Positions 1 through 18,008 of a stretch of 64,000 bases of DNA are shown here, one piece after another. A program made the translations under genes and the position numbers. The notes below the pieces were generated by a model. It made no database searches and was not told the DNA's origin. It saw only the letters and a program-made list of their open reading frames with translations. The DNA is taken from positions 62,001-126,000 of the forward strand of contig JAQXLY010000028.1 of NCBI GenBank assembly GCA_029012365.1, read 5' to 3'. Positions within the stretch are counted from its first letter, which is position 1. Each line of letters opens with the position of its first letter. This stretch comes from Lachnospiraceae bacterium. GTDB lineage: Bacteria > Bacillota > Clostridia > Lachnospirales > Lachnospiraceae.

Positions 1-1390
1 TCTGCTTTGCAATATTCATAATGCCGTCTGCCATCTTGTTAATTTCTACAATCGCTTCCATGCGTTTCATGGTTTCCGCTACGACAGTCTTGGTTTCTTC
101 AAAGGTGGAAGAACTGCTCGCATATGCTTCCTTCGACTGTTCCGTCATCTTATCTGAGCTCTCAATCAGATTTTCACTGGACTCTACACTCTTCTTCATG
201 GTTTCAAGAAGCAATTCCATACAATGGTCGATATGTTCCACATTGTCTTTTACATTTTCCATGAAATTATCCGTACTTTCAAGACTTGCGGATAATTCCT
301 CCACTGTTGCCGTATTTTCTGTCACACTCTCAACTAAGTGATCCGAATGACCATATAATTCTTTGGTTTTTTCATTAATCGTATTACAACATAAACCAAG
401 CATATTTACCATCTTCTGTAATGATTTCAAAAGATAATTAATAAACAGACTGGTAAATACGGTTAAAAGCAATACGCCGGCAACACAGATAACAGCAAGC
501 TGTACTTTTACTGTTTTCAATGCACCAAATACTTCAGCGGATGGGTCTGTTATAATAAATACCCAGCCCCTATCCTTCATATAGTTATAAGATGCGATGT
601 ATTCCTCTTTGTTCGTTTCATCCTCGTATACCAAAGAACCAAATTGACGATTTTCATCATTATTTATTTCCTTGATAATATCCTGTACGTACTTTTCCTC
701 TGCTACCGTATTGATTAGTTCTTTATCATCATGAAACAGGTATTCACCTGTTGCTATATTTACCATACAATACTGAAGCTTTTCCATTCCTTCCGCAGGC
801 AGCTTGTTAAGCGCATCAACCAGACCCTGGGTAAAAATGCCACCGCCTACAAAGCCAATCGGATTATTGCTTTCATCAAAACAGGCACGGTAAATCGAAA
901 TAACCTGTGCACCGCTCGCAGGCGAAGTGATAATTCCCGTATTATATACTCCGTCAGCAGCCTTCATTGACTGCTGTAGTGACTGCAATGACTCGTCTTT
1001 TCTGGTATAAATTCCCACTACACCTGCGTTGGTATGAGTAAGTACATGAGAGTCCCACTCACTGATGTAAATACCTTCTACATTTTCTCTGTCCTTGCTG
1101 AAAGTTTCTGTATATTTCTGCGCCATTTCCGTTGCAGCTTTGTCTTCCGGATGCTTTAATAACTCTTCCACCTCTCCGCCACGACTAAATGCTGTCAGAT
1201 AGCTTTCCGTCTCCAACATGTAGTTTTCAATAATTTCTGAACGTTCCTGTGCTATCGTTTCCATGCTTTTGATTGTACTGTTTTTAATATTCGATGTGAT
1301 CGAGGAATTCACAAACAAATAAACAACCGCCATTACAACCATTTGCAATACTAAGATTGCAATAATCATTTTTAAACCACGCTTTTTCAT
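1..1390 (-). CDS. Methyl-accepting chemotaxis protein (C-terminus cut by window edge)
   Basis: Transmembrane chemoreceptor. The ORF track omits it because the reading frame runs off the left edge; I read it on the minus strand from ATG at 1388-1390, which has AGGTG a few bases upstream. The translation starts MKKRGLKMIIAILVLQ (first membrane segment), continues with a roughly 250-residue extracellular region that looks like a double-Cache sensor (ending GWVFIITDPSAEVFG), then a second membrane segment (VQLAVICVAGVLLLTVF) and the start of a cytoplasmic coiled coil. The last visible residues, GIMNIAKQ, are the beginning of the conserved signalling hairpin (IA.QTNLLALNA in the family), so the gene continues about 150-200 residues past the edge. 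Ligand unknown. It has its own promoter and is not in the che operon at 7-16 kb, but could feed the same CheA. Confidence 0.9.
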   Translation of the reverse strand, partial: MKKRGLKMIIAILVLQMVVMAVVYLFVNSSITSNIKNSTIKSMETIAQERSEIIENYMLETESYLTAFSRGGEVEELLKHPEDKAATEMAQKYTETFSKDRENVEGIYISEWDSHVLTHTNAGVVGIYTRKDESLQSLQQSMKAADGVYNTGIITSPASGAQVISIYRACFDESNNPIGFVGGGIFTQGLVDALNKLPAEGMEKLQYCMVNIATGEYLFHDDKELINTVAEEKYVQDIIKEINNDENRQFGSLVYEDETNKEEYIASYNYMKDRGWVFIITDPSAEVFGALKTVKVQLAVICVAGVLLLTVFTSLFINYLLKSLQKMVNMLGLCCNTINEKTKELYGHSDHLVESVTENTATVEELSASLESTDNFMENVKDNVEHIDHCMELLLETMKKSVESSENLIESSDKMTEQSKEAYASSSSTFEETKTVVAETMKRMEAIVEINKMADGIMNIAKQ

Positions 1391-1435
1391 CTGCACCTCA
1401 TCCCTTTCATTTTTGGTAATAGCCTACACATTATT

Positions 1436-1464
1436 AGTGTAACAAATTCATTACAAAAATACAA
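1436..1464 (-). promoter_or_regulatory. Sigma-A-type promoter of the partial MCP
   Basis: On the minus strand TTGTAT and TACACT are separated by 17 bp, about 45 bp upstream of the MCP start codon. The -10 matches four of six consensus bases. The palindromic element begins 29 bp beyond the -35 box. Confidence 0.45.
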
Positions 1465-1493
1465 TTATCTTATATTGCGCAGCAGAGCATTCT

Positions 1494-1693
1494 ATAACAT
1501 TTCAGCCTTACTTATACGGGATAAGTTGTTGCGAAGGAGTATTCTAAAGAGAACCATAAGGCAACGTCAGTACTTAGCGAGGTGGTTTCGAGCTTAGTAC
1601 TGCTGCGTTGCTGCATGAGCGAGAGCGGGTTCTCTTTATGGAAACGCTGATCCGTCGCCACAACGATTACACACTAAAAGGGTGCACTGTTAC
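1494..1693 (-). mobile_element. MITE-like palindromic insertion, copy 1 (older copy)
   Basis: A 200-bp non-coding element related along its whole length, in opposite orientation, to the element at 28766-28960. The shared core includes CAGTACTTAGCGAGGTGGT and GCATGAGCGAGAGCGGGTT. The ends are ATAACATTTCAG and the complement GTAACAGTGCAC, weaker than in copy 2. It is flanked by AGCATTCT (1486-1493) and AGCATTTT (1694-1701), an 8-bp target duplication with one mismatch. The right arm of the core has diverged (TTTATGGAAACGCTGATCC in place of the arm that mirrors the left), so this copy looks older. It sits 3 bp after the stop codon of the kinase-DegV gene and may serve as its transcript end. No transposase is visible in the window. 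Confidence 0.85.
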
Positions 1694-1704
1694 AGCATTT
1701 TGCC

Positions 1705-4377
1705 CTATATGCTGTAATAAGAAATTCCAATGGTCCCCAAGCCGGAATTGCATGCCACCGAGAAGGATGCCTTTTGCACGATGACACGTTCAAACGGTAC
1801 ATAACGTAACACTTCTTTTCTTATCCATTCTAACTGCTCTACACTGCAGCCGACATGTGAAATAATAACCAAAGAAGGATTTATTTTATTTTTACGGCGC
1901 AGATGCCAGTAGATTCCCACTTTCCATGCCCGCTCCATAGTGCCTCCCAGAAACGCAGATAAAACAACTTTTTTCTGGCGCATTCCCGCATACGGATGAA
2001 GCTGTAGTAACCGGCAGAACATAAGTGTCAGAGCGTTGGTTCGCTTATTTTGGAAAAAAATATCCGCCGACGGAAAAATAAATCTGGACTGCACACCCGA
2101 CTTCATTTTTTCCACAGCACTGCATATCTCACTGGCTGTTTTTCCCTCCTTTGCAAGCTTTGCCGCAAAAAGGGTAATAATACTTTGACCACATGAAATC
2201 TGACAGGAATCTATGACCGCCACATGGTCAAACCCCTTCGCAGCCGTCATTGCAATCTGATAGCTGATACCCACATTGGATGCCATGGAAATATGCACCA
2301 CCTGCTCAGCCCGTGTCAGTACATCAGCAAAGAACTCTTCATATTCCTCTACTGTCACACTGTCCACATAGGCAGTGCTGTTGGTGGAAGAGATATACTG
2401 TGTCAGACTATCCGAATCAATTTCCTTTGTATCTGCAAACCGTCCATGTGGCGTTATGATGTACAGATACATCACCTCAATATCATACTGTTCCAACAGT
2501 TCCACAGGAAGATCACACACGCAATCTGTTGTAATACATACTTTTTTCCGCCACTGCAACGGAACCTTCTGTACCGGACTGCTTTCCTTCCATACACTTT
2601 TCACCGCTGCCTGATACTCTATCAAATCAGGCGGCAGAAATTTTAACAGCTCTGCTTCCAGTACTTTTCCGGATATAGGCTTTTCCAGATAACCGTCAAA
2701 TCCAAGTTCACGATATTTCTGCTCTGCTCCTGCCATTACATCGGCCGTAAGTGCAATCACTGTAGTATCCCTGCACAGACCGTTCTCCTGACTTCGAACT
2801 GCCTGTAACGTCTCAGCACCATTCATCTTTGGCATCATATAATCCATGAGAATTATATTGTATTGCTTTTTCTTTGTCAGTTCCAGACAATCCGGACCAC
2901 TGTTTGCAATATCTGTCTTTACCTTGGTATTTGTTAAGAGCCTGCTCACCACCATGGAACTTATGGGATTATCGTCCACAACCAGAATTTTCGCCTCCGG
3001 TGCTTCAAAGCTTGACTGATAGACTGGCGTCTCCTCCGTCTCTCTTTCCAACAGGTTGATGTCCCCGATTGTCTTTGCATCCACAACCTTTTGTCTGATG
3101 CTTATGGTGAAGACGGTTCCTTTGGTATAAATACTGTCAACAGCAATTTCTCCCTGCATCATATCCACCAGCTGTTTGGTGATTGCAAGACCGAGACCGT
3201 TTCCAACGATTCCCATATGACTTTTTTCATCCACCCGGCTGAAGGAATCATAAATATACGCTAAATCTTCCTTCCGGATTCCTATTCCGGTATCCGCTAC
3301 CTTCACCTGAAGCAGGACTTCCTCCCCTTCACTGCTTTCTGCATTTACCGAAAGTGTAACCGAGCCTTCCTCCGTATATTTCACGGCATTATCCAGAATG
3401 TTAAGAAATATCTGTTTTAACCGCCTTTCATCTCCAAACAGAACAGACGGCAGATTACGGTCAATTTCCAGATAAAACTCCAGCTCTTTGTTTTTCATCC
3501 GAATCCTAACCATATCTACAAGCTCGCCAAACAGCTCTTTTGTACTGTATGGTGCCGGAACAAGGCTCATCTTCTGCATTTCTAGCTGTGATAAATCCAA
3601 AATATCATTAATCTGGTTCAGAAGAAGCTTACTTGCCTGCTCAATATCTTTGGCATATTCCAGTGTATTACCCGAAGCGTTTTCACGCATAATCATTTCA
3701 TTCAGTCCGATGATTGCCGTAATCGGTGTTCTGATTTCATGACTCATATTGGCAAAAAAGACATTCTTTGCATTACTGCTTTTCTCTAATGCCTCTTTCT
3801 GCTCCATATTCAACTTATGCTCCTTCTCAAATACCTTCATTTGTGTCTTTAAGATGATTCCCACCAAAAGACCAACCACAATTACCGAAAAATATGAGTC
3901 CAGGTAAGCAAATTCTTCCGATGCCATCGGAACCAGATATTCCGGAAAACGAAGTGCAAAGAAGTAGGTTCCCCCATACACAGCTACACATAATATTAAG
4001 AAGAAAATCTGGCGTCTTCCGGTAAACATAATGAATATGTATGCAAAACCAAGCGCCAGCCAGACATCTGCCCCACTGTTCAGACCTGCGCTCAAAATAA
4101 ACATTACAGGAAAAATGACTGCGATTATAAAAAATCCAAGGACAATAGCCGCAATATCATACCTGCTGTACCGGAATGTGGCAAACAGGCAGATTCCCAT
4201 AGCAATAAGGAGCAGGAAAAGCATGAAAACTATCATTGCACTGATTTCCATGACAAGCAGAATTTCTATCATTGCGACAATGGCTGCTGCTCCTCCGGCA
4301 AGGATTACGGTACGGAACATTCTTTCCCTGAATTCACAATTCTTTCCGGATAACTCATCTAGTAATTTTTTCCACAC
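1705..4377 (-). CDS. Hybrid histidine kinase fused to a DegV (fatty-acid-binding) domain
   Basis: Membrane sensor kinase of 890 residues. GTG start with AGGGGGG upstream. Five or six membrane segments fill residues 20-175 with no large extracellular domain. The kinase core follows: H-box FFANMSHEIRTP with His213, N-box near 325 (LNILDNAVKY), G1 ADTGIGI near 361 and G2 GNGLGLAI near 392. A receiver domain spans about 463-580 with phospho-acceptor Asp512 (LMDYMMPKMNG). Residues 612-890 form a complete DegV-type domain: TTDCVCDLPVELLEQY at its start, HISMASNVGISYQIA and VIDSCQISCG in the middle, and a GLGTIGISYY end. DegV/FakB proteins bind fatty acids; here the domain occupies the place where an HPt or output domain would be expected. 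It lies 13 bp after the neighbouring hybrid kinase, so the two are probably co-transcribed. The stop codon is TAG at 1705-1707. Confidence 0.9.
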   Translation of the reverse strand: MWKKLLDELSGKNCEFRERMFRTVILAGGAAAIVAMIEILLVMEISAMIVFMLFLLLIAMGICLFATFRYSRYDIAAIVLGFFIIAVIFPVMFILSAGLNSGADVWLALGFAYIFIMFTGRRQIFFLILCVAVYGGTYFFALRFPEYLVPMASEEFAYLDSYFSVIVVGLLVGIILKTQMKVFEKEHKLNMEQKEALEKSSNAKNVFFANMSHEIRTPITAIIGLNEMIMRENASGNTLEYAKDIEQASKLLLNQINDILDLSQLEMQKMSLVPAPYSTKELFGELVDMVRIRMKNKELEFYLEIDRNLPSVLFGDERRLKQIFLNILDNAVKYTEEGSVTLSVNAESSEGEEVLLQVKVADTGIGIRKEDLAYIYDSFSRVDEKSHMGIVGNGLGLAITKQLVDMMQGEIAVDSIYTKGTVFTISIRQKVVDAKTIGDINLLERETEETPVYQSSFEAPEAKILVVDDNPISSMVVSRLLTNTKVKTDIANSGPDCLELTKKKQYNIILMDYMMPKMNGAETLQAVRSQENGLCRDTTVIALTADVMAGAEQKYRELGFDGYLEKPISGKVLEAELLKFLPPDLIEYQAAVKSVWKESSPVQKVPLQWRKKVCITTDCVCDLPVELLEQYDIEVMYLYIITPHGRFADTKEIDSDSLTQYISSTNSTAYVDSVTVEEYEEFFADVLTRAEQVVHISMASNVGISYQIAMTAAKGFDHVAVIDSCQISCGQSIITLFAAKLAKEGKTASEICSAVEKMKSGVQSRFIFPSADIFFQNKRTNALTLMFCRLLQLHPYAGMRQKKVVLSAFLGGTMERAWKVGIYWHLRRKNKINPSLVIISHVGCSVEQLEWIRKEVLRYVPFERVIVQKASFSVACNSGLGTIGISYYSI

Positions 4378-4390
4378 TGGTTATCCCCCC

Positions 4391-7153
4391 TTAGTTTCCT
4401 TCCACGTTATCAAGTGTCTTTTTCAGTTTGGCAAGTAGTTCAACCGCTGAAATATAAGAGGCTCCGTCTACCTTCTTCTGTATAGGCCCAAGCGCTGTAT
4501 GCAATGCCACGTTTCGATACAGATATGACTTCAGCTCATGAAAAATTGCGAGGAACGTCTCTTCATCGAGCGAATATACGGCGTTTTCCATCTGCTCTAT
4601 TTTCTGTTCAAATGCTGCTTCGTCCAGTTCCTCTAATGCGGCATCCGGAACGGAATCGACCGCAGCCACGGTATCCTCAGGGCACAGCCATTTCTCACTT
4701 TGCAGACCTTCAAGCAGCTTTCGGTATTCCTCAATCATCCTTGCATGATGTCCTGTGATAAATGCAATTCGTCCCTCACGTCCTGCAAACTCCAATTCCT
4801 TTGCAAGTTCGGAAACCTTATTGGCTCCAATGCTGCGCATTGCCCCTTTGATTCCATGCACTGCAATGGTATATTGGTTCCAGTCCTGCTCACGGAATAA
4901 TCGCTCGACGAGCTCGGCGGAATCTCCGGCTTCCTTACAGAAGTTTTGAAGTATTTTGATATAATGCTCTTTTCCGTTGCAATATAAAAGTCCACTGTTG
5001 GCATCCAGATCGTATCTGCTTAATATCTCTTTCAGTTCCTTAACCTCCGGCATTTCCGCATCGTCCTTCGGTTCCTCCATTACATCTTCCTGTAAAATAA
5101 TTTTTTCTGCCGGGATTACTCTCTTAAGCAGCCGTTCCAGTACGGAACATTCTACCGGTTTTTCTATGAAATCCTGAAATCCTTCCGTCAGGAACATTTC
5201 TCTTACTCCGGCTACCGCATTGGCAGTCAGGGCAATGACAGGTACTCTCCGGTAATAGCTTCCCACCAGATGACGGATACGATGCAGTGTTTCCACTCCG
5301 TCCATCTCCGGCATCATATGATCCATAAATACACAGTCATAATTCTCCGATGTTATTTTTGTCAATGCTTCTGCTCCGCTAAGGGCAGTCGTAACTTTAA
5401 TCCGATAGTTGGCAAGCAGGGCTTCCATAACCATAATGTTCATCCGGTTATCATCCACAACAAGTACATGTACGTCTTTTGTTGTAAACCTTCCGCTGCT
5501 TAGTGGCATTCCGTCCTCCGAAGCATTGTACAACCCATTCAGTACCGATACAATTGTAAGAATATATAACGGTTTATATATCTTCAAAACCTTCGGATTT
5601 GTCACATGCACTGCTTCTGCCCGGTCAAGCATAACAACCAGTTTGGTCTTATCGGCAAGTGTGTCAAAATAATCCCTGTCCGATAAATACTCTGTTTCAC
5701 TGACGAAGACATGAGAAAGCTCTTCTCTTTTTTCCCTTCTTTGCAGCTCCGCAAGATTGCGGCAGATATGACACCTTCCTTTTAACTGTTCTACCATGTG
5801 GGTGATACAGCGATCGTATTCATCACGTACCATCTCCATCATATACTTTTCCATATCAACATAAACGGCAACATTGATTTCATCCCTGTTACTGATAGTT
5901 GCAATCGGTCTCTCATCCAGAACCTTAAGTGGCACTGTGAATCGGATACAGGTACCTTTGCCAAGACGGCTCTTTACCATTATGGCACCGCCCATCTTTT
6001 GTACCAGTGCCCTGGATATGGCAAGTCCCAGACCAACACCTTCCTTCTGGCGGTTTCTTCCGGTATCCGCCTGATTAAAGCCGGCAAACAATTTATCCTG
6101 GCTTTTCTCATCCATACCGATTCCGGTGTCCTTCACTGCAACCATCAGATTGATTCCATAGCTTTCCCTGCGATATCCTATCAAAAGGCTGATACAGCCT
6201 TCCTCTGTAAATTTTATAGCATTGTCTATCAGATTCATTATTACTCTGCGGAGCTTTTTCTCATCTCCGTACAAAGCGCATGGAATATTCGCATCACAAT
6301 CCACAATCAGCTCAATCGGCTTGTTTCCTCTGCGTGCCGATGTCATATTTATCACATCATTAATCGTTGAAGTAATACTGTATGCTTCCTCCTCAAGTTC
6401 TATTCTGCCCGAAAGAAGCTCTGAAAAATCAAGAATATCGCTGACAACCGACATCAGCATCCGTCCGGAGGTCTGGATACTCCGGATATCCTCCTGTACG
6501 GAATCCGGAAGCTCCTTTTGCAGTAACAGTTCGCTCATACCACAGATGGTATTTAACGGTGTCCTGATTTCATGGCTGACATTAGCGAGGAAGTCATCCT
6601 TACTCTGTTCTACTCTCTCCAGTTCGTCAATGACCCCGAGCAGCTGCTCACTTCCCGCCTTGTTCATTCTGGTAGAGGTATACATCACCCGTTCCAGAAG
6701 TCCTGCATTCAACAGCAGTGCAATTGCCGTATAAACGGTTTCAGGACTTACATCCGCATAGCTTTTTATGAAAAATACATGAATTATAAATACAATCAGT
6801 ATACCCACCGTCGGAATATAAATCAGTTCCGCTATGCCATACAGACTGACCATTACAACAAATACCAGCAATACCGGAAGTGCACGCGTAAAATCCTCCA
6901 GCTTTGACGCATGCAGTATCAGTATCGACTGCATAACCACAACATAAAACGCCGCCCGGAACACATAGGTTCTGAATTTTCCCACATACACAATCCACGC
7001 CAAAAGTATTCCGCAGGTCATTAATATGCCGTCCCACGGACTTCCTTCTCTCCTGACAGACAGTATTACCAGTGTAATCGTATAAAGACTGTAAATAATT
7101 ACGGAATACGTCTCTATTTTCTTCTGATTACTGTCTGAATACGTGCAATTCAC
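4391..7153 (-). CDS. Hybrid sensor histidine kinase with receiver and HPt domains
   Basis: 920-residue membrane hybrid kinase. The start is GTG with AAGGAGG eight bases upstream. Six or so membrane segments occupy residues 15-155, followed by a short coiled linker. The kinase has His194 in FLANVSHEIRTP, N-box MNLIDNAIKF near 306, DTGIGM near 342 and GVGLGLAI near 372. Residues about 425-545 look like a receiver fold without a clear phospho-acceptor; a canonical receiver follows at about 561-680 (Asp611 in FMDHMMPEMDG). An HPt domain near 720-800 carries His766 (AVHGIKGAMRSIGA). The protein thus has a complete internal His-Asp-His relay and could pass phosphate on to a separate receiver. It is the first gene of a two-gene unit with the kinase-DegV fusion. 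Signal unknown. Confidence 0.92.
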   Translation of the reverse strand: MNCTYSDSNQKKIETYSVIIYSLYTITLVILSVRREGSPWDGILMTCGILLAWIVYVGKFRTYVFRAAFYVVVMQSILILHASKLEDFTRALPVLLVFVVMVSLYGIAELIYIPTVGILIVFIIHVFFIKSYADVSPETVYTAIALLLNAGLLERVMYTSTRMNKAGSEQLLGVIDELERVEQSKDDFLANVSHEIRTPLNTICGMSELLLQKELPDSVQEDIRSIQTSGRMLMSVVSDILDFSELLSGRIELEEEAYSITSTINDVINMTSARRGNKPIELIVDCDANIPCALYGDEKKLRRVIMNLIDNAIKFTEEGCISLLIGYRRESYGINLMVAVKDTGIGMDEKSQDKLFAGFNQADTGRNRQKEGVGLGLAISRALVQKMGGAIMVKSRLGKGTCIRFTVPLKVLDERPIATISNRDEINVAVYVDMEKYMMEMVRDEYDRCITHMVEQLKGRCHICRNLAELQRREKREELSHVFVSETEYLSDRDYFDTLADKTKLVVMLDRAEAVHVTNPKVLKIYKPLYILTIVSVLNGLYNASEDGMPLSSGRFTTKDVHVLVVDDNRMNIMVMEALLANYRIKVTTALSGAEALTKITSENYDCVFMDHMMPEMDGVETLHRIRHLVGSYYRRVPVIALTANAVAGVREMFLTEGFQDFIEKPVECSVLERLLKRVIPAEKIILQEDVMEEPKDDAEMPEVKELKEILSRYDLDANSGLLYCNGKEHYIKILQNFCKEAGDSAELVERLFREQDWNQYTIAVHGIKGAMRSIGANKVSELAKELEFAGREGRIAFITGHHARMIEEYRKLLEGLQSEKWLCPEDTVAAVDSVPDAALEELDEAAFEQKIEQMENAVYSLDEETFLAIFHELKSYLYRNVALHTALGPIQKKVDGASYISAVELLAKLKKTLDNVEGN

Positions 7154-7185
7154 CCCGCTCTCCTCCTTCTCTCTCCCTGCATGGG

Positions 7186-7234
7186 AAAAAAACGCATACC
7201 GACGTCACAGACAACGCCTCTGACGCCAGTATGC
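7186..7234 (-). terminator. Rho-independent terminator ending the chemosensory operon
   Basis: Minus-strand stem GCATACTGGCGTCAGAG pairs with CTGTGACGTCGGTATGC (one mismatch, two G-U) across a 7-base loop and is followed by GTTTTTTT. It begins 9 bp after the MCP stop. Only about 30 bp separate it from the hybrid kinase start, so the kinase pair may depend on read-through. Confidence 0.85.
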
Positions 7235-7242
7235 ACTCTGTA

Positions 7243-8598
7243 TTAATATTTACCAAAATTTCCTTTTAAGGAAATAATCTGTTCATTTCTGTCCGCATGA
7301 CTGTCATAGCGGTGCGACTCATTTAAGGTGCCGGTGCCCGCAACTCCAAAGGTATCGTTGTCCAGTCTGTATACAGAAACAAGTTCACGTACTCTGCTTG
7401 CCTGACTGGCCAGTTCCTGACTGGCAGCAGCACATTCTTCACTGGTAGCGGAATTTGTCTGTACTACCTGGGATACCTGTTCGATTGCCTGGTCAATCTG
7501 TGCAATTGCAGTTGCCTGATAATTGGAAGCCTCTGCAATATCCATAATAATCTTTTCGCTCTGCTGTACTACCTTTGTGATATCCTCCAGTGCCTGTGCT
7601 GTTTCGTTTGCGATTCTGGAACCTACCTCCACCTTCTGGATGGAATCCTCAATCATATCTGCTGTCTCTGCGGCTGCGGAAGAACTCTTTGCCGCAAGGT
7701 TTCTTACTTCCTCGGCTACTACGGCAAAGCCCTTGCCTGCCTCGCCTGCCCTTGCTGCCTCAACTGCCGCATTGAGGGCAAGAATGTTTGTCTGAAATGC
7801 AATGTCGTCAATTACCTTGATAATTTTTGAAATGCTCTCGGACGCTTTATTAATATCCTGCATGGCTACTACCATTGCTCTCATTTCTTCATTGCCCTTC
7901 TTCACGTCTGTAATTGCACTTGTCACCAGCTCTGCTGCCTCGTTTGCCTGGGAAGCATTCTGTCTTGTCTTTTCCGCCACATCTATAATGGAAGCTGTAA
8001 TCTGTTCAATTGCACTTGCCTGCTCTGTAGAACCCTGAGCCAAAGCCTCACTTGCACTTGCAACCTGAGACGAGCTGGTTGTCACCTGATAAGCTGCATT
8101 TCTGATGTTACCAATGGAATTCTGGTTCTGCCATATCATTTTCTGTAAAGCAAGTCCCATGATATCTTCTTCCGACCTAGGCTTTACCTCTACCGAAAGG
8201 TTACCTTCTGCAACCTCCTGTGCAATCTGTGCCTGATAACGGGTAGCATCAATCATCTGCTGGAAGCTGTCGATTAACACGCCGAACTCATCATTGTTCG
8301 CCTTTTCTAACGTTACATCGACCTTTCCGAGCTTCATTTCCTCTGTTGCCGTCATAATTTGTGCCAAAGACAATCGGATTCCCCGGATGACATAAATTGA
8401 AATAACCGTAGAGGCAGCAACTGCCATCAGCAACAGAAAAATTGTAAATATCGCATAGGAATGCAGGTATTTCTCCTGATCGTCTTTTGTGATAATTGTT
8501 TTCGCCGTAGAATAGCCGGCAAACTGGCTAAATAAAACAAACAAATCCATAATAAAAAAGCCTATGTACAGTTTTGTTACCATCTTAATGTTTTTCAT
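7243..8598 (-). CDS. Methyl-accepting chemotaxis protein without an extracellular sensor domain
   Basis: 451-residue chemoreceptor, last gene of the che operon. The first ATG at 8604 overlaps the cheW stop (TAATG) and lies only three bases from GGAG; the ATG at 8598 has a proper 9-base spacing and is chosen. Two membrane segments (near 10-30 and 43-65) are separated by only about 15 residues, so there is no room for a periplasmic ligand domain. A HAMP region follows, then the methylation helices and the signalling tip [20 protein letters not shown] near 270. The signal may be read in the membrane, the HAMP region or through a soluble partner. The C-terminal tail lacks a clear CheR-docking pentapeptide. 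Confidence 0.93.
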
Positions 8599-8603
8599 AA
8601 TCA

Positions 8604-9101
8604 TTACTCTCCTTCTTCTGTTATTTCTTCTGTCATCTGCTCTAAAACAGACCAGTCTTCATCTTTAATCAGTTTCTCCGGGTCCAGCAGAAGCTTTACA
8701 TTTTCTCCTACCTTACCGATTGCATAAACATACTTGTTCTGGTTTTTATCCACGTTTCCGAGTGACGGTGAATCCAGAATATTGTCTTCCGTAATCTCCA
8801 CCACCTCTGCAACCTTTTCTACAATCAGACCTACCACCATATCCTTCACATTGATAACAATGATGCAGGTTCTGTCATTGTACGCAAGCTCCGGCTGCTT
8901 AAACCGCACTCTTACGTCAATGACAGGAATAATTTTCCCCCTAAGGTTAATCAGGCCCTTGATATAATCCTCACTTTCGGGTATTTCCGTAATTTCCTGA
9001 AAGACGATTATCTCATTGACGTATTCGATTTTTAAGGCGAAGTACTCATTACCCGACTTAAAAGTCACATACTTGTTATGTTGTGTAACAAGTTCACTCA
9101 T
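8604..9101 (-). CDS. cheW: Chemotaxis coupling protein CheW
   Basis: Scaffold protein linking chemoreceptors to CheA; 165 residues, usual length. The track ORF starts at a TTG (9110) that abuts the Shine-Dalgarno; the ATG at 9101, ten bases after AAAGGAG, is the better start. The CheW beta-fold is recognisable in [21 protein letters not shown], the central [15 protein letters not shown] and [15 protein letters not shown]. It lies between cheA and the MCP gene, overlapping the latter's first ATG by one base. Confidence 0.95.
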
Positions 9102-9124
9102 ATAGTTCAAGCTCCTTTCTGTAT

Positions 9125-11275
9125 TTATTCTACCAGTCCGGCTACATCAAGAATCAGGGCAATGCTTCCGTCTCCAAGCTGTGTACAGCCTGTTAACCCT
9201 TTCACCTTTTTGATATAATCCGGAATCGGTTTTACAACTATTTCCTGATTTCCTATCAACCGGTCTACAAACAGGCAAATGGTCTTCTTCTCAGCCTCCA
9301 CCAGTACTAACATACCTTCTTCGACATCTGCCTTGTAATCATGCAGCTTGTACCATTCTCCAATTCTGAGAACGGGATAGCCTTCACCGCGTATCATGAC
9401 AAACTCCCTGCCGTTCGGCTGCTGAATAAGTCTGTTTTCACGGATGCTCACAAATTCCTTCACGGCACCCGTTTCCAGTACAAAGTAGGACTTGCCGACA
9501 CCCATAATGATTCCGTCAATAATTGCAAGTGTTAACGGTATTTTTAACAGCATAAGGCTTCCCTGCCCCGGAGTGCTTTCTATTTCCAGACTTCCGCCGA
9601 TGGACTGGAGATTCGAAACTACAACGTCCATTCCGACTCCTCTTCCCGAATACTCCGTAACCTTCTCATTCGTGGAAAAGCCCGGAAGAGTAATAAACTG
9701 ATAGACTTCCTTATCGGTATAGTCACTTTCTTCCTTTGCGCTGTCTAAAAGTCCCTGCTTTCTTGCTTTTGCCAGTATCTTTTCACGGTCCAGTCCTTTA
9801 CCGTTATCCTGTACGCCAATCCATACCTTTCCGGACTCCGTCTTTGCCCACAGGGTTACCTTGCCCTTTTCCGTCTTGCCCTGAGCAATACGTTCTTCCT
9901 CGGTTTCAATACCATGATCTACCGCATTTCGGACAAGGTGCATCAGCGGGTCGGAAATATGCTCGATGATATTTTTATCAACTTCTGTGTATTCTCCGGA
10001 CATTTCAAATTCAATGTCCTTTCCGAGCTTTCTTGATACATCAAACACAATCCGGTTCATTTTCTGGAAGGTATTTGTCAAAGGCATCATTCTCATGCTC
10101 ATAATGACGTTCTGAAGATCCGTGGATATCTTGGTCATCTGCACTGCGGCCTTATTAAAATTATCCAGCTTTAAGCCCGGTACCTTTAAATCCGAATTTT
10201 GAAGCACCACTGATTCGGAAATAACAAGCTCTCCGATTAAATCCATCAGCATATCCATCTTCTGCACATCCACACTGATAAAAGCTGCCTTTTCCTGCTT
10301 TTTCGACTTGTCCTTTGCCAGCTTTTTCCCTTTGCCGGGCTCCTTTGACTCAATGACAAAGTCACCGGGTGCTATTTCCTTTTTCGCTGCTTCTTCCTTC
10401 AATTTAGCAGCTTCTGCCACATCGGCCTTTGCCTCAATCTCTTCCACACTGGATTCCAGATCAATTCTGATTTCCGTACCGAAGCTGTCAAAGCCCTGCT
10501 GAAATTCCTTTGCGTTACATTCATAGATTTCTACTTTTTTAATGTCGTAGCCTTCTTGGATGATGCCACGCAGGTCCTGTTCGCTGCACTGTGCCTGCAA
10601 TAGGATTTTAAACCCATTTTCCAGAATTTCGTCTGCACTGGATTCATCCGAAATAATATCCTCCGGATAATGCAGTAAATCCTCTGCGATTTCCTTCATG
10701 GAATATATTATTTTGTAGGCATGTACATTCGCAAGAGGAACATCCGGATTAAAAGTCACGTAAATCTTAAAAAAACGGCTTGCACTTGTAGCCATCGGTG
10801 CAATATAAAACTGCTGCGGTTCCTCATGCACATTTTCCTTGATATCCTTTTCCTTCTCGCCGTCTCCGTTTTTTATTGAAGTTAAAAACCGGTCAATATC
10901 ATCCACCAGTTCTCCGGCAACCCCGTCCGCTGCTTCACCGTCCTGAATTTTATCCATCTCTGCATTAATAAAATCAGATACCTTCAGAACATATTCCACT
11001 AATTCCATATGCGGAACATTTTGTGGTTTTGATTCTCTCAGGTAATAGAACACATCCTCCAATTTGTGCGACAGCTTCGTAATCTCATCAAACATCATGA
11101 CACCGGAAGAACCCTTGATGGTATGCATCGTACGGAAGATTTCGTTGATGCTCTCCTCATCAAAGCACTCCTCATCCTTTTGTTCTAACACGATCTCCTG
11201 AAGCTTTTCCAGCAGCTGTCTGTTTTCAAACAGGTAGATGTCCAACATTCCCTGTGTATTAAACTCCTCTGCCAT
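9125..11275 (-). CDS. cheA: Chemotaxis histidine kinase CheA
   Basis: Central kinase of the chemosensory array, 716 residues. The N-terminal HPt (P1) carries phospho-accepting His51 in RTMHTIKGSSGVMMF. Residues about 150-260 form a CheY/CheB-docking-like P2 region, followed by an Ala/Lys-rich linker, the P3 dimerisation helices (MDMLMDLIGELVISES near 345), the P4 ATPase domain (HLVRNAVDHGIET, GVQDNGKGLD, GRGVGMDVV) and the CheW-like P5 at the C-terminus (LTLAIIDGIIMGVG onward). AAAGGAG precedes the ATG. It sits between cheY and cheW with gaps of 17 and 14 to 23 bp. All functional motifs are intact. Confidence 0.97.
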   Translation of the reverse strand: MAEEFNTQGMLDIYLFENRQLLEKLQEIVLEQKDEECFDEESINEIFRTMHTIKGSSGVMMFDEITKLSHKLEDVFYYLRESKPQNVPHMELVEYVLKVSDFINAEMDKIQDGEAADGVAGELVDDIDRFLTSIKNGDGEKEKDIKENVHEEPQQFYIAPMATSASRFFKIYVTFNPDVPLANVHAYKIIYSMKEIAEDLLHYPEDIISDESSADEILENGFKILLQAQCSEQDLRGIIQEGYDIKKVEIYECNAKEFQQGFDSFGTEIRIDLESSVEEIEAKADVAEAAKLKEEAAKKEIAPGDFVIESKEPGKGKKLAKDKSKKQEKAAFISVDVQKMDMLMDLIGELVISESVVLQNSDLKVPGLKLDNFNKAAVQMTKISTDLQNVIMSMRMMPLTNTFQKMNRIVFDVSRKLGKDIEFEMSGEYTEVDKNIIEHISDPLMHLVRNAVDHGIETEEERIAQGKTEKGKVTLWAKTESGKVWIGVQDNGKGLDREKILAKARKQGLLDSAKEESDYTDKEVYQFITLPGFSTNEKVTEYSGRGVGMDVVVSNLQSIGGSLEIESTPGQGSLMLLKIPLTLAIIDGIIMGVGKSYFVLETGAVKEFVSIRENRLIQQPNGREFVMIRGEGYPVLRIGEWYKLHDYKADVEEGMLVLVEAEKKTICLFVDRLIGNQEIVVKPIPDYIKKVKGLTGCTQLGDGSIALILDVAGLVE

Positions 11276-11292
11276 GTAACACTCCTTTCTAT

Positions 11293-11685
11293 CTATACCA
11301 GACCAAATTTTTTCAATACCTGTTCAAACTTTTCCTGGTCAATCGGTTTTCCCGAGTAAACCGTGCACCCCAGTTCAAATGCCATTTTTACATTCTTCTC
11401 TTCGTTCAATGCGGTTGTCATGATAACCTTCGCTGCCTTTTCCTTCGGAATGCTGCGTTCCTTTTCCAAATTACGGATTCCGACAAGTGCCTGATAGCCG
11501 TCCATTACCGGCATCATGATATCCAGGCAGACCAAATCATATGGGTTATCCTCCTCCAGTGCCATCATAAAAGCATCCACTGCTTCCATGCCGTCCACTG
11601 CGACATCACATTCACCATACTTTCCCAAAAAATTTGTCATAAACTTTCTTGTTACAAAATCATCCTCTGCTAACAGTATTCTCAT
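11293..11685 (-). CDS. cheY: CheY-like single-domain response regulator
   Basis: 130-residue stand-alone receiver. Acidic pocket AEDD at 6-9, phospho-acceptor Asp55 in LVCLDIMMPVMDGY, Thr near 90 (IMTTAL) and Lys in the GKPID loop near 113. Placed directly upstream of cheA and downstream of cheB, so CheA is the expected phosphodonor. The family includes both flagellar-switch CheY and phosphate-sink or non-flagellar outputs; with no flagellar genes nearby the output is open. AGGAAGG precedes the ATG. Confidence 0.93.
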   Translation of the reverse strand: MRILLAEDDFVTRKFMTNFLGKYGECDVAVDGMEAVDAFMMALEEDNPYDLVCLDIMMPVMDGYQALVGIRNLEKERSIPKEKAAKVIMTTALNEEKNVKMAFELGCTVYSGKPIDQEKFEQVLKKFGLV

Positions 11686-11703
11686 AATACCTTCCTTTCC
11701 GCT

Positions 11704-12732
11704 TTACATTTTACTCAGTATCGTATAGGTTTTCCTGGCGATATCCGACAGTTTTTCCTGATACTCTACTGCGCCTATCTCGTATGCCACTTTCGGCATG
11801 CCATAAACAACGCAGGTAGATTCATCCTGTCCGATTGTCCTCGCGCCTGCTTTTCGCATAGCAAGAAGCCCTTTTGCACCATCCCCTCCCATTCCGGTTA
11901 AAATAATGCCTATTGCCCTGCTTCCTGCAGCCTCCGCTACAGAATGAAACAAAACATCAACGGACGGACAATGTCTGTTTACCTTCTCTCCTTTTCGGAT
12001 GACTACCTGATACCCCCCGTTCCTGTTCACCAGCTGCATATGGGCGTCACCGCCCGGCGCAATCAATACCTGTCCCGGCACAACCGGATCACCGGATTTT
12101 GCTTCCTTTACCTGTACCCTGCACCTTCCATTCAGCCTGTTTGCATACATTTCCGTAAACCCGGCAGGCATATGCTGCACGATAACCACTCCCGGAATAT
12201 CGGTACCGAATTGCTCCAATACGGCCGCAATAGCTTCCGTACCTCCTGTGGATGCACCGATTGCTACAACCAGATTATGGTTTTCATTTGAAAGTACCTG
12301 ACCGACTGCCTGCGCCTGTGTTCTTTTCCAGCTTCCGAGTTTTGCAATGGAAGCTATTTTAATTTTTGCCGGAATTTCATTCTTCATAAACGCTTCCAGC
12401 TGTGCCCGCGTTGCACCGGACGGCTTTGCCACAAAATCAACCGCCCCTGCATTCAGGGCATCAAATACTTTATCGCTCAGGGAGCTGATGACTACAACCG
12501 GTAACGGATACTGCGGCATCAGCTTTCGTAAGAATTCAATTCCGCTCATATGCGGAAGTTCAATATCCAGTGTCATGACATCCGGCTGATACTGAATAAT
12601 TGCATCCCTCGCTTCAAAAGGGTCTTTCGCCGCTGCCACCACCTGAATTTCCGGATCTTCATTCAGCTTTTGAATGAGAAGCTCCCTGAATACCAGAGAA
12701 TCTTCTACCACTAATACCCTTATCTGACGCAT
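11704..12732 (-). CDS. cheB: Protein-glutamate methylesterase/deamidase CheB
   Basis: Adaptation enzyme that removes methyl groups from chemoreceptors. 342 residues: receiver domain 1-120 with Asp56 (MTLDIELPHMSG), a linker, and the methylesterase domain from about 150 with the catalytic Ser in VAIGASTGG, His in VIVQHMPAGF and Asp in ILTGMGGDGAKG. Full length for the family. It lies 2 bp after cheR, with GGAGGAG before the start, so both arms of the methylation cycle are present. Confidence 0.97.
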   Translation of the reverse strand: MRQIRVLVVEDSLVFRELLIQKLNEDPEIQVVAAAKDPFEARDAIIQYQPDVMTLDIELPHMSGIEFLRKLMPQYPLPVVVISSLSDKVFDALNAGAVDFVAKPSGATRAQLEAFMKNEIPAKIKIASIAKLGSWKRTQAQAVGQVLSNENHNLVVAIGASTGGTEAIAAVLEQFGTDIPGVVIVQHMPAGFTEMYANRLNGRCRVQVKEAKSGDPVVPGQVLIAPGGDAHMQLVNRNGGYQVVIRKGEKVNRHCPSVDVLFHSVAEAAGSRAIGIILTGMGGDGAKGLLAMRKAGARTIGQDESTCVVYGMPKVAYEIGAVEYQEKLSDIARKTYTILSKM

Positions 12733-12734
12733 TT

Positions 12735-13553
12735 TTATTTCATCTCCTCCTGCTTACGGAAAATTGAGGGTTGTACCAGCTCAAAAGGAACGCTCTCCCG
12801 GTCGATGGTTTCCGTTCTTCCTATAAATAAATATCCTCCCGGCTTCATGACATGATACACCTTTTGAAGCAATTCATTTTTTGTATTCTTATCAAAATAT
12901 ATCATAACATTTCTCAAAAATACAATATGCATTTTCCGCTTAAACGGAAAGACATCCATCAGATTAAACTGACGGAACAGTACTTCATCCTTGATTTCCT
13001 TTGTAACCTCAAAATTCTCTCCATGATCCGTGGAATGCAGAAAACGGCGTTTCCATGCATCCGGAAGTACTTCAATCTGCTCTGCTGTGTATCGTCCTTC
13101 CATCGCCTGCCGCAATACCTGTGTTGAAATATCTGTCGCCAGTACCTTGGTATCCCAAAGCTGATGCTCCAACCCGAAAAAGTCTTTTAAGAGCATTGCC
13201 AGCATATAGGGTTCCTGTCCTGTAGAGGCTGCACCGCACCAGATGCATAAATCCTTTGCTTTGTCTTCCCTTTGTTTCAGTTCCGGAAGTACAACCTTTC
13301 TCAGAAAATCAAAATGTTCAAACTCTCTCATGAAGAAGGTATGATTTGTGGTCATAAGATCGACCAGCTCTCTTTCAAGCGTACCCGTGTAATCTGTTTC
13401 TACGGAATTCATATATTCATGATAGCTTCCAAAGCCCTTGATACGAATATAGTTTTCCAGTTTTCCCTGCATAATTTCCTTTTTGCGGCTCATATCAATG
13501 CCGTATTTGCTCTTTAAAAAGCGGCAAATCCGCAAAAACTCTTCTTCTGTCAT
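12735..13553 (-). CDS. cheR: Chemoreceptor methyltransferase CheR
   Basis: S-adenosylmethionine-dependent glutamate methyltransferase acting on receptor methylation helices; 272 residues, standard length. The N-terminal helical domain is followed by TTNHTFFMREFEHFDFL, typical of CheR, the SAM-binding LCIWCGAASTGQEPYMLAM and the later DIFLRNVMIYF-like segment (HIVFLRNVMIYFDKNT). Gaps are 28 bp to the upstream response regulator gene and 2 bp to cheB. Confidence 0.96.
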   Translation of the reverse strand: MTEEEFLRICRFLKSKYGIDMSRKKEIMQGKLENYIRIKGFGSYHEYMNSVETDYTGTLERELVDLMTTNHTFFMREFEHFDFLRKVVLPELKQREDKAKDLCIWCGAASTGQEPYMLAMLLKDFFGLEHQLWDTKVLATDISTQVLRQAMEGRYTAEQIEVLPDAWKRRFLHSTDHGENFEVTKEIKDEVLFRQFNLMDVFPFKRKMHIVFLRNVMIYFDKNTKNELLQKVYHVMKPGGYLFIGRTETIDRESVPFELVQPSIFRKQEEMK

Positions 13554-13581
13554 ATTTCCCCCGTATTTTCCGGCTGCCGCA

Positions 13582-14652
13582 CTAATGAAGCTGCCTCATT
13601 ATTTTTTTCAAAATGCAGAATATTTCAGGACAAAATTTTTTATTTTCATCCTTTTCCATAATTTGAAACGCCTCTTCTCTGCTAAAGGATTTACGGTATG
13701 TCCTGTGTTCCGTCAACGCGCAGAAAATGCCTGTCACTGCAACAATCTGTGCCGAAAGCGGAATTTCATTTTCCTTTCTTCCTTCCGGATATCCGCTACC
13801 GTCCCAGTTCTCATGATGATAATTTGCGATATCCACCGCCATCTGAAGCATTCTGTTATCCGTGCCGGCTCCCTTGATATCGCGCAGAATTCTTGCTCCG
13901 ACAGTTGTGTGGGTCTGCATAATTTCCTTTTCTTCCTGCGTAAGCTTTCCCTGCTTCTGCAGTATGTTGGTCGGGATTGCCAGGTTTCCGAGATCACAAA
14001 GAGGTGCTGCAAGCTCTATCGTATCTATGTAGCTGTCGGAAATCAGATGTTCATAGTTTTTTGACAGTTGCATTGCCTCCGCCAGTACACGGCAGTTGTA
14101 GCTGAACCGTTCCATATATGCCTCATTATAACAGGCATTTTCCCTTGCCACCCTGAGTAAAGCATATAATACACTTCTTCGCTCCAATTCCATTTTTTGC
14201 AGCTGCTCTCCGATGGATATCTGCAGCTGCCGGTTCATTTCCGTCATCCGGTGGTTAGCTTCATATAATTTCAGATGCAGCCCGACTCTTGCCTTAACGA
14301 CCTCCGAAATAAAGGGCTTAACAATATAGTCCTCACCGCCGAGCGAAAAGCCACGCACAATATCGTTAGGTTCATCCAGTGCAGAAATAAATATAACCGG
14401 AATTTCCTTTGTATCCGTGTCCTCCTTTAGCCTTCTGCATGCTTCATAGCCATCCATTTCAGGCATCGCGACATCCAGAATAATCAACTGGGGCCTGATA
14501 TGCTGTGCCAGTTTAAGTGCCTGTATCCCGTTTTCGGCAAGTACCGCCTGATATCCCATTTCCGAAATGATGTCCTTTAACACCAGTCTGTTTGCCTCCA
14601 CGTCATCTGCAATCAGAACTATGGGAACTATACTATTTATCTTCCGTTCCAT
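13582..14652 (-). CDS. Response regulator with a degenerate HD-GYP output domain
   Basis: 356-residue receiver-HD protein. The ATG at 14652 is preferred over 14667 because GGAGGA lies eight bases upstream of it. Receiver 8-125 with Asp60 (ILDVAMPEMDGY) and Lys112. The C-terminal half follows the HD-GYP layout and keeps QTHTTVGARIL (His248) and YHHENWDGSGYP (279-289). However, the HD signature itself reads LCDLGN (219-223; normally HDIGK), the first His of the family is missing in ERFSYNCRV, and the late D..DAL motif reads TGIFCALT. Several metal ligands are therefore absent and c-di-GMP hydrolysis is unlikely; a sensing or scaffold role is more likely. It overlaps the kinase gene by 20 bp and is probably that kinase's partner. 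Confidence 0.88.
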   Translation of the reverse strand: MERKINSIVPIVLIADDVEANRLVLKDIISEMGYQAVLAENGIQALKLAQHIRPQLIILDVAMPEMDGYEACRRLKEDTDTKEIPVIFISALDEPNDIVRGFSLGGEDYIVKPFISEVVKARVGLHLKLYEANHRMTEMNRQLQISIGEQLQKMELERRSVLYALLRVARENACYNEAYMERFSYNCRVLAEAMQLSKNYEHLISDSYIDTIELAAPLCDLGNLAIPTNILQKQGKLTQEEKEIMQTHTTVGARILRDIKGAGTDNRMLQMAVDIANYHHENWDGSGYPEGRKENEIPLSAQIVAVTGIFCALTEHRTYRKSFSREEAFQIMEKDENKKFCPEIFCILKKIMRQLH

Positions 14653-16114
14653 CCGATTTTCCTCCATGGTCCATGATTATGCCCTGCAACAATTCAAATG
14701 TCTCCGTGGTTTTCCCGTAATCCCCCTTTTGTACTGACATCTTCAGCCGGAGTGCTGCACTCTTTACTTCTCTTGGTGCATCCTCTAACAGCTTTTTGAC
14801 CGACTCTGCAAACATTTCTGCTTTTTCCCAGTTCTCCATCTCAACGCTGAGAATCAGCTTAGACATTTTTTTCTTAACTTCATTGTTGTTTTCTGTTGTT
14901 CCATACTGCCAGATTTTTTTGCTTACTCTTTCTTCTGATATATTCTGCAGCTTTTTTAGCAGACTCTGGGTATCCACATCAACGGATGGCTCCGATACAC
15001 TCTCTGCCCCCGCTTCCTCCTCGGGAATCTCTACCCAGATATGAAATGTGAAGGTACTTCCCTTTTCATATTCGCTTTCCACATGAATGCTTCCCCCCAT
15101 CAGCTCTGTGAGCTGCTTGCAGATATTCAGACCGAGCCCTGTTCCTCCGTATCTTCTGGAAATGGAAGCATCCGCCTGCACAAAGCTCTGAAACAGCTTA
15201 TCCTGCTTGTCCTTCGGAATACCGATTCCGGTGTCTATCACCATAAAGAATAATTCTATCCGGTTATCGGTCTGTGCGGTTTTTACTACTTCCACATGGA
15301 TGCCTCCGACGGAAGTAAATTTATATGCATTGGATATCAGATTATTCAGTATCTGGACAATTCTTAACTTATCTCCTATCACATATACCGGAATCTTCGG
15401 AGAAACGGAAATTGTAAACTCCAGTCCTTTTTCGATGATTCGGTTGCTGTGGTTTTCTTTGACATATTCCATCATTTCCCGGAAATCAAACTTTCTTGGC
15501 TCCAGTGTAAATTTACCTGCTTCCAGCTTCGAAAAATCCAGAATACTGTTTATCAGTGTATTCATATCCTGACAGCCATGCTCTATCAGCTCCAGACGTT
15601 TTCTTTTTTCCTTATCCGTTTCCATCGCAAGAAGCTCCCTTGCATTTCCGGAAATACCGTTGACCGGTGTTCGGAGCTCATGCGTAACATTGGCAACAAA
15701 TTCGGATTTCACCTTAAGGGCATCCTCTGCCTCCTGACCGGCCTGACTTGCTTTTTTTTCAAGGAAGCTTTCATTCGAGATATTATAAGCAATACATACA
15801 TATTGCTTTTTTTCCCCCTGCTCACGATAAAGAAACAATCTGCCCTTCGCCGGAAAACAGGTTTTGTTTTTCCGGTATGCCATCATGTCCCGCAACACAT
15901 TCCCGGACTTCTGCAAAGGAACTGCTTTTTCACCCTCTGATTGAAATTCTGCAGGGAAAATTTCCTTTATCTGATGTCCGTAAAGTCCTTCCTCAAATTC
16001 CAGCTGCTGTTTTGCCGAAGGATTGGCATATGTAATAATTCCATTCTCATCGAAGCTGATGATAAGTTCCAATGCATTGTCTATCGAAAATCGAAATAAG
16101 CCTTCCAATTCCAT
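14633..16114 (-). CDS. PAS-domain soluble histidine kinase heading the che operon
   Basis: 493-residue cytoplasmic sensor kinase. The ATG at 16114, with GGAGG five bases upstream, is preferred over the TTG at 16147. PAS domain 8-110 (ALELIISFDENGIITYANPS), H-box EFVANVTHELRTP with His145, N-box NNLISNAYKF, G1 DTGIGI and G2 YGGTGLGLNICKQL. No membrane segment and no receiver of its own. The C-terminal 90 residues are helical and unassigned. Its position as the first gene, overlapping a receiver-HD gene, suggests a two-component input attached to the chemosensory operon. Such a gene is not part of the standard cheRBYAW set. Confidence 0.92.
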   Translation of the reverse strand: MELEGLFRFSIDNALELIISFDENGIITYANPSAKQQLEFEEGLYGHQIKEIFPAEFQSEGEKAVPLQKSGNVLRDMMAYRKNKTCFPAKGRLFLYREQGEKKQYVCIAYNISNESFLEKKASQAGQEAEDALKVKSEFVANVTHELRTPVNGISGNARELLAMETDKEKRKRLELIEHGCQDMNTLINSILDFSKLEAGKFTLEPRKFDFREMMEYVKENHSNRIIEKGLEFTISVSPKIPVYVIGDKLRIVQILNNLISNAYKFTSVGGIHVEVVKTAQTDNRIELFFMVIDTGIGIPKDKQDKLFQSFVQADASISRRYGGTGLGLNICKQLTELMGGSIHVESEYEKGSTFTFHIWVEIPEEEAGAESVSEPSVDVDTQSLLKKLQNISEERVSKKIWQYGTTENNNEVKKKMSKLILSVEMENWEKAEMFAESVKKLLEDAPREVKSAALRLKMSVQKGDYGKTTETFELLQGIIMDHGGKSDGTEDK

Positions 16115-16219
16115 TCTATCCTCCAAAGCATCAGACAGGGTCCCCAAAAGAATTACCTGTTTCTCTTTATTTGTATAATGTCGTTAATTCTTCAAACTTT
16201 TCTTAGGCCTTACGCTCTA

Positions 16220-16248
16220 ATTATAATACAATTTTTCAATATTTGCAA
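16220..16248 (-). promoter_or_regulatory. Strong sigma-A promoter of the chemosensory operon
   Basis: Minus strand TTGCAA, 17-bp spacer, perfect TATAAT; about 100 bp upstream of the PAS-kinase start. Downstream genes are spaced 28 bp or less, so this promoter probably drives all eight genes to the terminator at 7186-7234. No flagellar sigma-28 motif is evident here. Confidence 0.7.
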
Positions 16249-16275
16249 CAAATTTACTCTTGAGTTTTAAATAAG

Positions 16276-16328
16276 TAAAAAAAGGACTTTCACATCTGTG
16301 AATTCTTCACTCACAAATGTGAAAGTCC
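16276..16328 (-). terminator. Terminator after xylB
   Basis: Minus-strand stem GGACTTTCACAT pairs perfectly with ATGTGAAAGTCC, extended by TGTG/CACA, and is followed by eight T residues. It lies 16 bp after the xylB stop. Confidence 0.9.
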
Positions 16329-16344
16329 GTTCTTCTTTTCTCTC

Positions 16345-17820: not shown

Positions 17821-17903
17821 CTTTTCTCCTTTCTTCGCACCTGCATTTTCCACGTTTCGCGCCCTGTGATATTTCGGAAACAAACGCAAAGCACCTTAAA
17901 TTA

Positions 17904-17932
17904 ATGATAGCAATGAAGCCCTGACATGTCAA
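17904..17932 (-). promoter_or_regulatory. Sigma-A promoter of xylB with a palindrome at the -35
   Basis: Minus strand TTGACA, 17-bp spacer, TATCAT, about 80 bp before the xylB start. The -35 box is embedded in TGACATGTCA, a 10-bp perfect palindrome that could be an operator. No regulator gene is adjacent. Confidence 0.7.
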
Positions 17933-18008
17933 CCTTTTTCGATAAACTCATCTACCTTTTTCCAAAGAATTCGACATCCGCCCCACCGCATTATACCTTA
18001 CATTACCA

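Follow-up and report, generated by a model that had tools for sequence, protein, structure and literature searches.

Gene content of the locus

The window—the whole 64,000-nucleotide stretch of Lachnospiraceae DNA analysed here—carries near its start a run of minus-strand genes in which two hybrid histidine kinases (HK) with receiver domains (REC) lie beside a set of chemotaxis genes:

1705..4377, minus strand: HK-REC-DegV hybrid histidine kinase, 890 aa (open reading frame and Pfam; GTG start at 4377)
4391..7153, minus strand: partner kinase, HK-REC-Hpt, 920 aa, a membrane hybrid whose gene ends 13 nt before that of the DegV kinase begins (Pfam)
7243..8604, minus strand: methyl-accepting chemotaxis protein (MCP), 453 aa, the next gene upstream of the partner kinase
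8604..9110, minus strand: CheW (Pfam)
9125..11275, minus strand: CheA (domain assignment)
11293..11685, minus strand: single receiver domain, CheY-like, 130 aa (domain assignment)
11704..12732, minus strand: CheB (domain assignment)
12735..13553, minus strand: CheR (domain assignment)
13582..14667, minus strand: REC-HD-GYP response regulator with a degenerate HD motif (domain assignment)
14633..16147, minus strand: PAS histidine kinase without a receiver domain, 504 aa (domain assignment)

The DegV kinase is one continuous open reading frame of 890 aa, running from a GTG start at 4377 to a stop at 1705; the plus strand across 1705–4377 is stop-rich. A purine-rich ribosome-binding site precedes the start, which falls 13 nt past the stop of the upstream gene. 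A sequence-only reading of this DNA had described a single uninterrupted frame joining kinase and DegV domains, and this was borne out, with the addition that the frame lies on the minus strand, which that reading left unstated. Its parts are as follows:

3844..4377, minus strand: residues 1–178, an amphipathic N-terminal helix (2–10) and five to six membrane helices (predicted secondary structure, hydropathy)
3580..3768, minus strand: HisKA, residues 204–266 (Pfam; phospho-His213 invariant in 44 homologues)
3091..3435, minus strand: HATPase_c, residues 315–429 (Pfam; N330, D362, G364, G366, G392, G394, and G396 invariant in 44 homologues)
2653..2988, minus strand: receiver domain (Response_reg), residues 464–575 (Pfam; D468, D469, phospho-Asp512, and K566 invariant in 44 homologues)
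2554..2610, minus strand: flexible linker, residues 590–608, pLDDT < 50 (structure prediction)
1714..2544, minus strand: DegV-fold domain, residues 612–888, a complete fold (Pfam, predicted structure)

The multi-helix membrane input that had been proposed is likewise present: five to six helices span residues 16 to ~178, and no extracellular domain was recognised within residues 1–178 from secondary structure and hydropathy. All the hallmarks of a hybrid kinase (HisKA His, HATPase N and G boxes, REC Asp) are in place, and the active-site residues of the three domains are invariant among 44 homologues. The DegV domain is recognised by Pfam (PF02645; 109 bits, cut-off 27, covering model positions 1–278 of 280) and by NCBIfam (TIGR00762; 114 bits, cut-off 99.7). 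A full-chain structure prediction, which the sequence-only reading had proposed, gave no confident placement of the domains relative to one another (pTM 0.48).

The REC-HD-GYP gene of the window lies beyond the che genes, counted from the kinase pair. Its HD motif reads PLCDLGN against an intact LLHDVGK in most other cassettes, where the HD-GYP regulators retain both HD and GYP motifs. Phosphodiesterase activity has possibly been lost from this protein. With its HD motif degenerate, c-di-GMP output is not to be assumed at the window locus. The GYP motif of the same gene (HHENWDGSGYP; 13582–14667) is intact.

Distribution of the fusion

When 60 related genomes were searched with the whole protein, co-linear full-length matches (33%–52% identity) were found in seven genomes besides the source, some of which hold two or three copies, and full-length HK-REC-DegV homologues occur in many genera. 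A frameshift at codons 590–612, raised earlier as a way in which two genes might have been joined, is ruled out by these homologues and by the nature of residues 590–608, which form a disordered linker.

A profile built from an alignment of the kinase-linked DegV domain was then run over 397 Lachnospiraceae genomes, many of the assemblies surveyed being metagenome bins. Matches of about 250 bits or more lie nearly all in open frames of ~720–1166 aa, whereas those below ~246 bits are almost only standalone proteins of ~300 aa, the exception being a divergent copy in genome G188. Among listed matches of about 250 bits or more, the DegV sub-clade defined by the fusion is present in ~74 of the 397 genomes, nearly always fused. 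When the order (a sample of 295 genomes) and the phylum (a sample of 398) were scanned, fused members of this clade turned up only in Lachnospiraceae and in one genome from another family of the order; outside these, the nearest relatives are standalone DegVs, plus one or two longer frames. In a named genome collection, a profile scan found 385 stretches encoding relatives, and some of the loci match records named as Lachnospiraceae, among them Acetatifactor sp. and Lapin bins. One fused copy (L211) comes from a bin named Candidatus Treponema faecavium and groups inside the Lachnospiraceae sequences; this contig is probably mis-binned.

Within the genus of the source genome, the fusion occurs in the source itself and in G002, an unfused DegV of the same subtype occurs in G006, G008, and G009, and no DegV of this subtype was detected in five other genomes. 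The concern that the fusion might be missing from close relatives thus holds in part within the genus, but not for the family, across which it is widespread. The DegV part of the fusion is under purifying selection, with dN/dS of 0.05–0.15 in all but one of 15 close pairs (the remaining pair has saturated dS). No published description of a fusion between DegV and a histidine kinase was found in the open-access full text, which was the literature covered.

A conserved operon

The DegV kinase is part of a conserved operon, in which an output regulator is followed by HK-REC-Hpt and then by HK-REC-DegV. A neighbourhood survey covered 134 distinct kinase-linked DegVs. The gene upstream most often encodes HK-REC-Hpt, seen as 92 whole genes and as 12 fragments ending in REC-Hpt that are truncated by the end of the stretch. 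The output regulator farther upstream varies: it is a REC-HD-GYP protein in about half, a lone REC in 15, or a chemosensory set of MCP, CheW, and CheA. Cassettes of this last type are those of the window, G031, G129, G119, and G188. One copy, in G011, sits in what its translated neighbours, the sole basis for this reading, suggest is a cluster of flagellar genes.

The DegV domain is not fused at every such locus. In G006, G008, G009, G392, G077, and G298, it is encoded by a separate gene directly behind HK-REC-Hpt, and at a second locus of the source genome the HK-REC and DegV genes overlap by a few bases (ATGACAAATAG). That second cassette (L046, 4108–11245; G000:C58) comprises HK-REC-Hpt, REC-HD-GYP, HK-REC, and the separate, overlapping DegV gene, and G306 (L125) is split in the same manner. 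Since the unfused and split genes sit directly behind the same kinases, DegV belongs with the kinase pair in fused and unfused form alike. The separate DegV of L046, at 10388–11242, keeps a Ser62/Ser95 pair (numbering as in the carrier FakB1, below), and the source genome thus supplies its own natural counterpart against which to compare the fused copy. A further arrangement is found in G421 (L149:708-5444), in which a protein of 1578 aa has an N-terminal DegV followed by dCache-HisKA-HATPase-REC-Hpt—the same parts in another order—with ~470 residues between the DegV and Cache domains to which no domain is assigned.

One Hpt per kinase pair

The sole Hpt of the window's kinase pair is in the partner kinase (4391..7153). 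Among the 94 pairs to which the count was restricted, in which both genes were readable, Hpt lies in the upstream kinase only in 89 and in the DegV kinase only in five; no pair has Hpt in both kinases and none lacks it. The five exceptions read HK-REC-DegV-Hpt or, in L149, DegV-HK-REC-Hpt; a Pfam check confirmed that L038 and L149 contain Hpt and that the partner in L039 lacks it. L045 stands outside the 94; no Hpt was recognised in its partner kinase, and one is encoded by a separate gene downstream. On the DegV tree, the five fall into one clade plus L149. The switch thus happened at least twice, and each time the partner shows the reciprocal state; on the DegV-kinase side, the sharing rule involves only about two evolutionary events.

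The simplest reading of exactly one Hpt in each of 94 pairs is one shared phosphorelay, and the pattern argues for it. Coupling of DegV to a phosphorelay, proposed earlier from the fusion, is strongly supported by fusion or tight linkage at more than 100 loci together with this strict sharing of a single Hpt.

The DegV domain: fold and residues

The predicted DegV domain is a complete fold (pLDDT 93.9) of the same kind as the FakB/DegV proteins Staphylococcus aureus FakB1 (5uto/6mh9), Bacillus subtilis DegV (3fys), and Thermotoga maritima TM841 (1mgp). The best matches among FakB/DegV crystal structures align over 264–277 residues at 2.1–2.7 Å with Z of about 31–34 (33.6 to 1pzx, ~31 to FakB1). 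In S. aureus FakB1, the carboxylate of the fatty acid is held by Thr62, Ser95, Ser171, and His270, whereas Arg173 is required for catalysis with FakA (acyl phosphorylation) and Arg205 docks FakA (PMC8892158).

Comparison at these positions of 134 kinase-linked with 48 standalone DegVs separates the two groups. Arg205 is present in one of the 134 against 48/48 standalone proteins, and His270 is replaced in 131/134 (by Asn in 130) against a His in all 46 standalone proteins aligned there. Arg173 is less affected, being kept in 98/134 against 48/48. A register error at Arg205 was considered and is ruled out: the glycine that follows is invariant in all 182 sequences (134/134 and 48/48), which fixes the alignment and makes the loss firm. 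An Arg one residue before position 205 occurs in 50/134, though not in the window copy, and some members of the clade might thus retain a positively charged patch at this site. Position 62 is Ser, in place of Thr, in 119/134, and Ser95 is retained in 117/134. Standalone DegVs have 81 hydrophobic columns, of which 66—many of them core columns—remain hydrophobic in the kinase-linked clade. The retained hydroxyl pair and hydrophobic columns suggest a preserved tunnel.

In a quick tree, the kinase-linked DegVs stand apart from 52 standalone ones across a branch with SH-aLRT 99, and an unfused operonic copy lies at the base of the group. Judged by its residues, with Arg205 lost, the domain is a FakB relative disconnected from FakA; the source genome itself encodes FakA and four separate, ordinary DegVs.

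The window copy departs further from FakB1. At positions 62/95/171/173/205/270, it reads V/G/N/R/G/N instead of T/S/S/R/R/H, so that the Thr62-Ser95-Ser171-His270 network is replaced throughout (V62, G95, N171, N270), Gly stands at the FakA-docking position, and the Arg173 equivalent is kept in the alignment. The earlier description of a complete fatty-acid-binding domain with recognisable binding-loop motifs was correct as to the fold, which is complete, and overstated as to binding, since key FakB residues—both hydroxyls, Ser171, and His270—are absent. Loss of both carboxylate-binding hydroxyls (T62V and S95G in the window) is shared by the chemotaxis-linked branch to which the window belongs: the 62/95 pair is present in 0/4 chemosensory-linked members against 118/130 others (Fisher p = 1.4e-4), although the four are related, which brings the loss closer to one event. 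By these residues, fatty-acid binding of the known type is least likely in the branch of the window DegV, and with the equivalents of Thr62, Ser95, Ser171, and His270 gone, the binding of any ligand by the window copy is doubtful. The lipid sensing first suggested is thus possible for most of the clade, which has a hydroxyl at 62 together with Ser95, and is weakened for the window protein. Another chemosensory-linked kinase, in G188 (L147:4577-7288), has a DegV tail that has diverged strongly, scoring 211 bits with S C A F P L at the site positions, and its ligand site looks to have decayed further.

A probable shared phosphorelay with a DegV module

The fusion, the clade, the operon, Hpt sharing, residue losses, the predicted fold, and purifying selection are established by the analysis; from them we infer phosphate flow, ligand binding, and the direction of control. 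The cassette is probably a two-kinase Lachnospiraceae phosphorelay with one shared Hpt and a FakB-derived, C-terminal DegV regulatory module. Two membrane hybrid kinases from one operon would share the single Hpt; the DegV kinase would autophosphorylate on His213 and pass phosphate to its own Asp512, and the Hpt of the partner would relay phosphate to an output regulator on another protein, which is a REC-HD-GYP in some cassettes, a lone CheY-like REC in others, and a chemosensory set in the window. The DegV domain, a putative descendant of a FakB-type carrier freed from FakA, would have been recruited as a cytosolic regulatory module. In most members, the most likely input would be a small lipid ligand, acyl or otherwise, that alters kinase or phosphotransfer activity, since the Ser62/Ser95 pair able to hold an acyl carboxylate persists in them; in the chemotaxis-linked branch, loss of that pair suggests that the ligand has changed or that the domain acts by protein docking. 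Of the roles proposed for the domain, the best supported is that of a module turned to a new use, sensing a ligand or docking within a two-kinase phosphorelay, with an acyl ligand plausible for most members and less so for the window.

A more specific version, in which the FakB-derived domain reads an acyl ligand and thereby controls the shared-Hpt relay towards HD-GYP c-di-GMP turnover or a motility/chemosensory output, is tentative. If correct, it would be a lipid-responsive relay previously undescribed in gut Lachnospiraceae and a Gram-positive analogue of DSF/Rpf signalling assembled from different parts.

A pseudo-FakB that binds no ligand and instead docks, holding together the kinase pair or a kinase and a chemosensory array, is a somewhat fainter possibility. 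The chemotaxis-linked branch, which has lost both hydroxyls while its fold remains complete, speaks for such a role, as does a DegV nearly always encoded beside the same partner; most of the clade, however, keeps the hydroxyls at 62 and 95 and the hydrophobic columns, and the four chemotaxis-linked members may represent one event. That the tail is a working FakB, carrying fatty acids from membrane to FakA while the kinase reports the traffic, is very improbable. Fatty-acid carriers do work at the membrane (PMC8892158), where the DegV kinase is anchored, and the complete fold and the Arg173 of many members and of the window copy are compatible with such a role, but 133/134 have lost Arg205 and nearly as many His270, the window copy has also replaced Thr62, Ser95, and Ser171, and FakA and four ordinary DegVs are available in the source genome for that job. 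Delivery to FakA is accordingly rejected on residues for the clade, unlikely for the DegV kinase of the window, and the lipid delivery suggested by the sequence-only reading finds no support. An assembly or sequencing artefact, for which the split genes of L046 and L125 might be cited, is ruled out for practical purposes by a continuous frame at more than 100 loci, with a conserved linker position and no internal stops.

Returning to the shared phosphorelay, the one-Hpt-per-pair rule opens a two-kinase relay to direct testing, and the small, probably soluble DegV domain lends itself to a search for its ligand.

Relation to known systems

In the RpfC-RpfG system of Xanthomonas, which responds to DSF, a multi-transmembrane HK-REC-Hpt protein senses a fatty acid and drives a REC-HD-GYP regulator (PMC5391125). 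The cassette described here likewise has an HK-REC-Hpt kinase, with an adjacent REC-HD-GYP in about half of the resolved loci; many cassettes of the family place a multi-transmembrane HK-REC-Hpt beside an intact REC-HD-GYP, whereas in the window the HD-GYP gene lies past the che genes and encodes a degenerate HD motif. The Lachnospiraceae cassette differs in its second kinase with DegV; RpfC has no DegV and senses DSF via a short N-terminal sensor. By this comparison, the likeness is one of layout, not membership.

Unlike FakB, the kinase-linked DegV is covalently part of a hybrid kinase and is without Arg205 and His270, the window copy also being without the Thr62 and Ser95 hydroxyls. Loss of Arg205 and His270 provides a signature that splits signalling DegVs from metabolic FakBs, both of which are annotated 'DegV family' today. 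A fatty-acid carrier fold would thus have moved from lipid metabolism into a signalling chain, in an abundant gut family.

Recruitment of this kind has a distant parallel. DhaQ is a DhaK-related co-activator: a paralogue of a kinase subunit, it is no longer catalytic and now regulates in response to a ligand. The DhaQ of the Lactococcus lactis dha operon (2iu4) matches the kinase DegV domain at the level of the fold only (Z 16.5); it binds dihydroxyacetone, acts with a TetR-type regulator, and is not fused to a histidine kinase. In B. subtilis, degV adjoins the degSU two-component genes, and a DegV/two-component neighbourhood is therefore not unique; that DegV is, however, a separate, unfused FakB-type protein outside any hybrid phosphorelay.

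A repeat behind the DegV-kinase gene

No Rfam family matched within window positions 1–18000, which include an intergenic hairpin element of ~100 bp behind the DegV-kinase gene (1540–1645; G000:C28:63540-63645; core GTACTAAGCTCGAAACCACCTCGCTAAGTAC). The element resembles small palindromic mobile repeats of the REP/MITE kind and is found at 31 sites genome-wide, mostly at 95%–99% identity, with several at contig ends.
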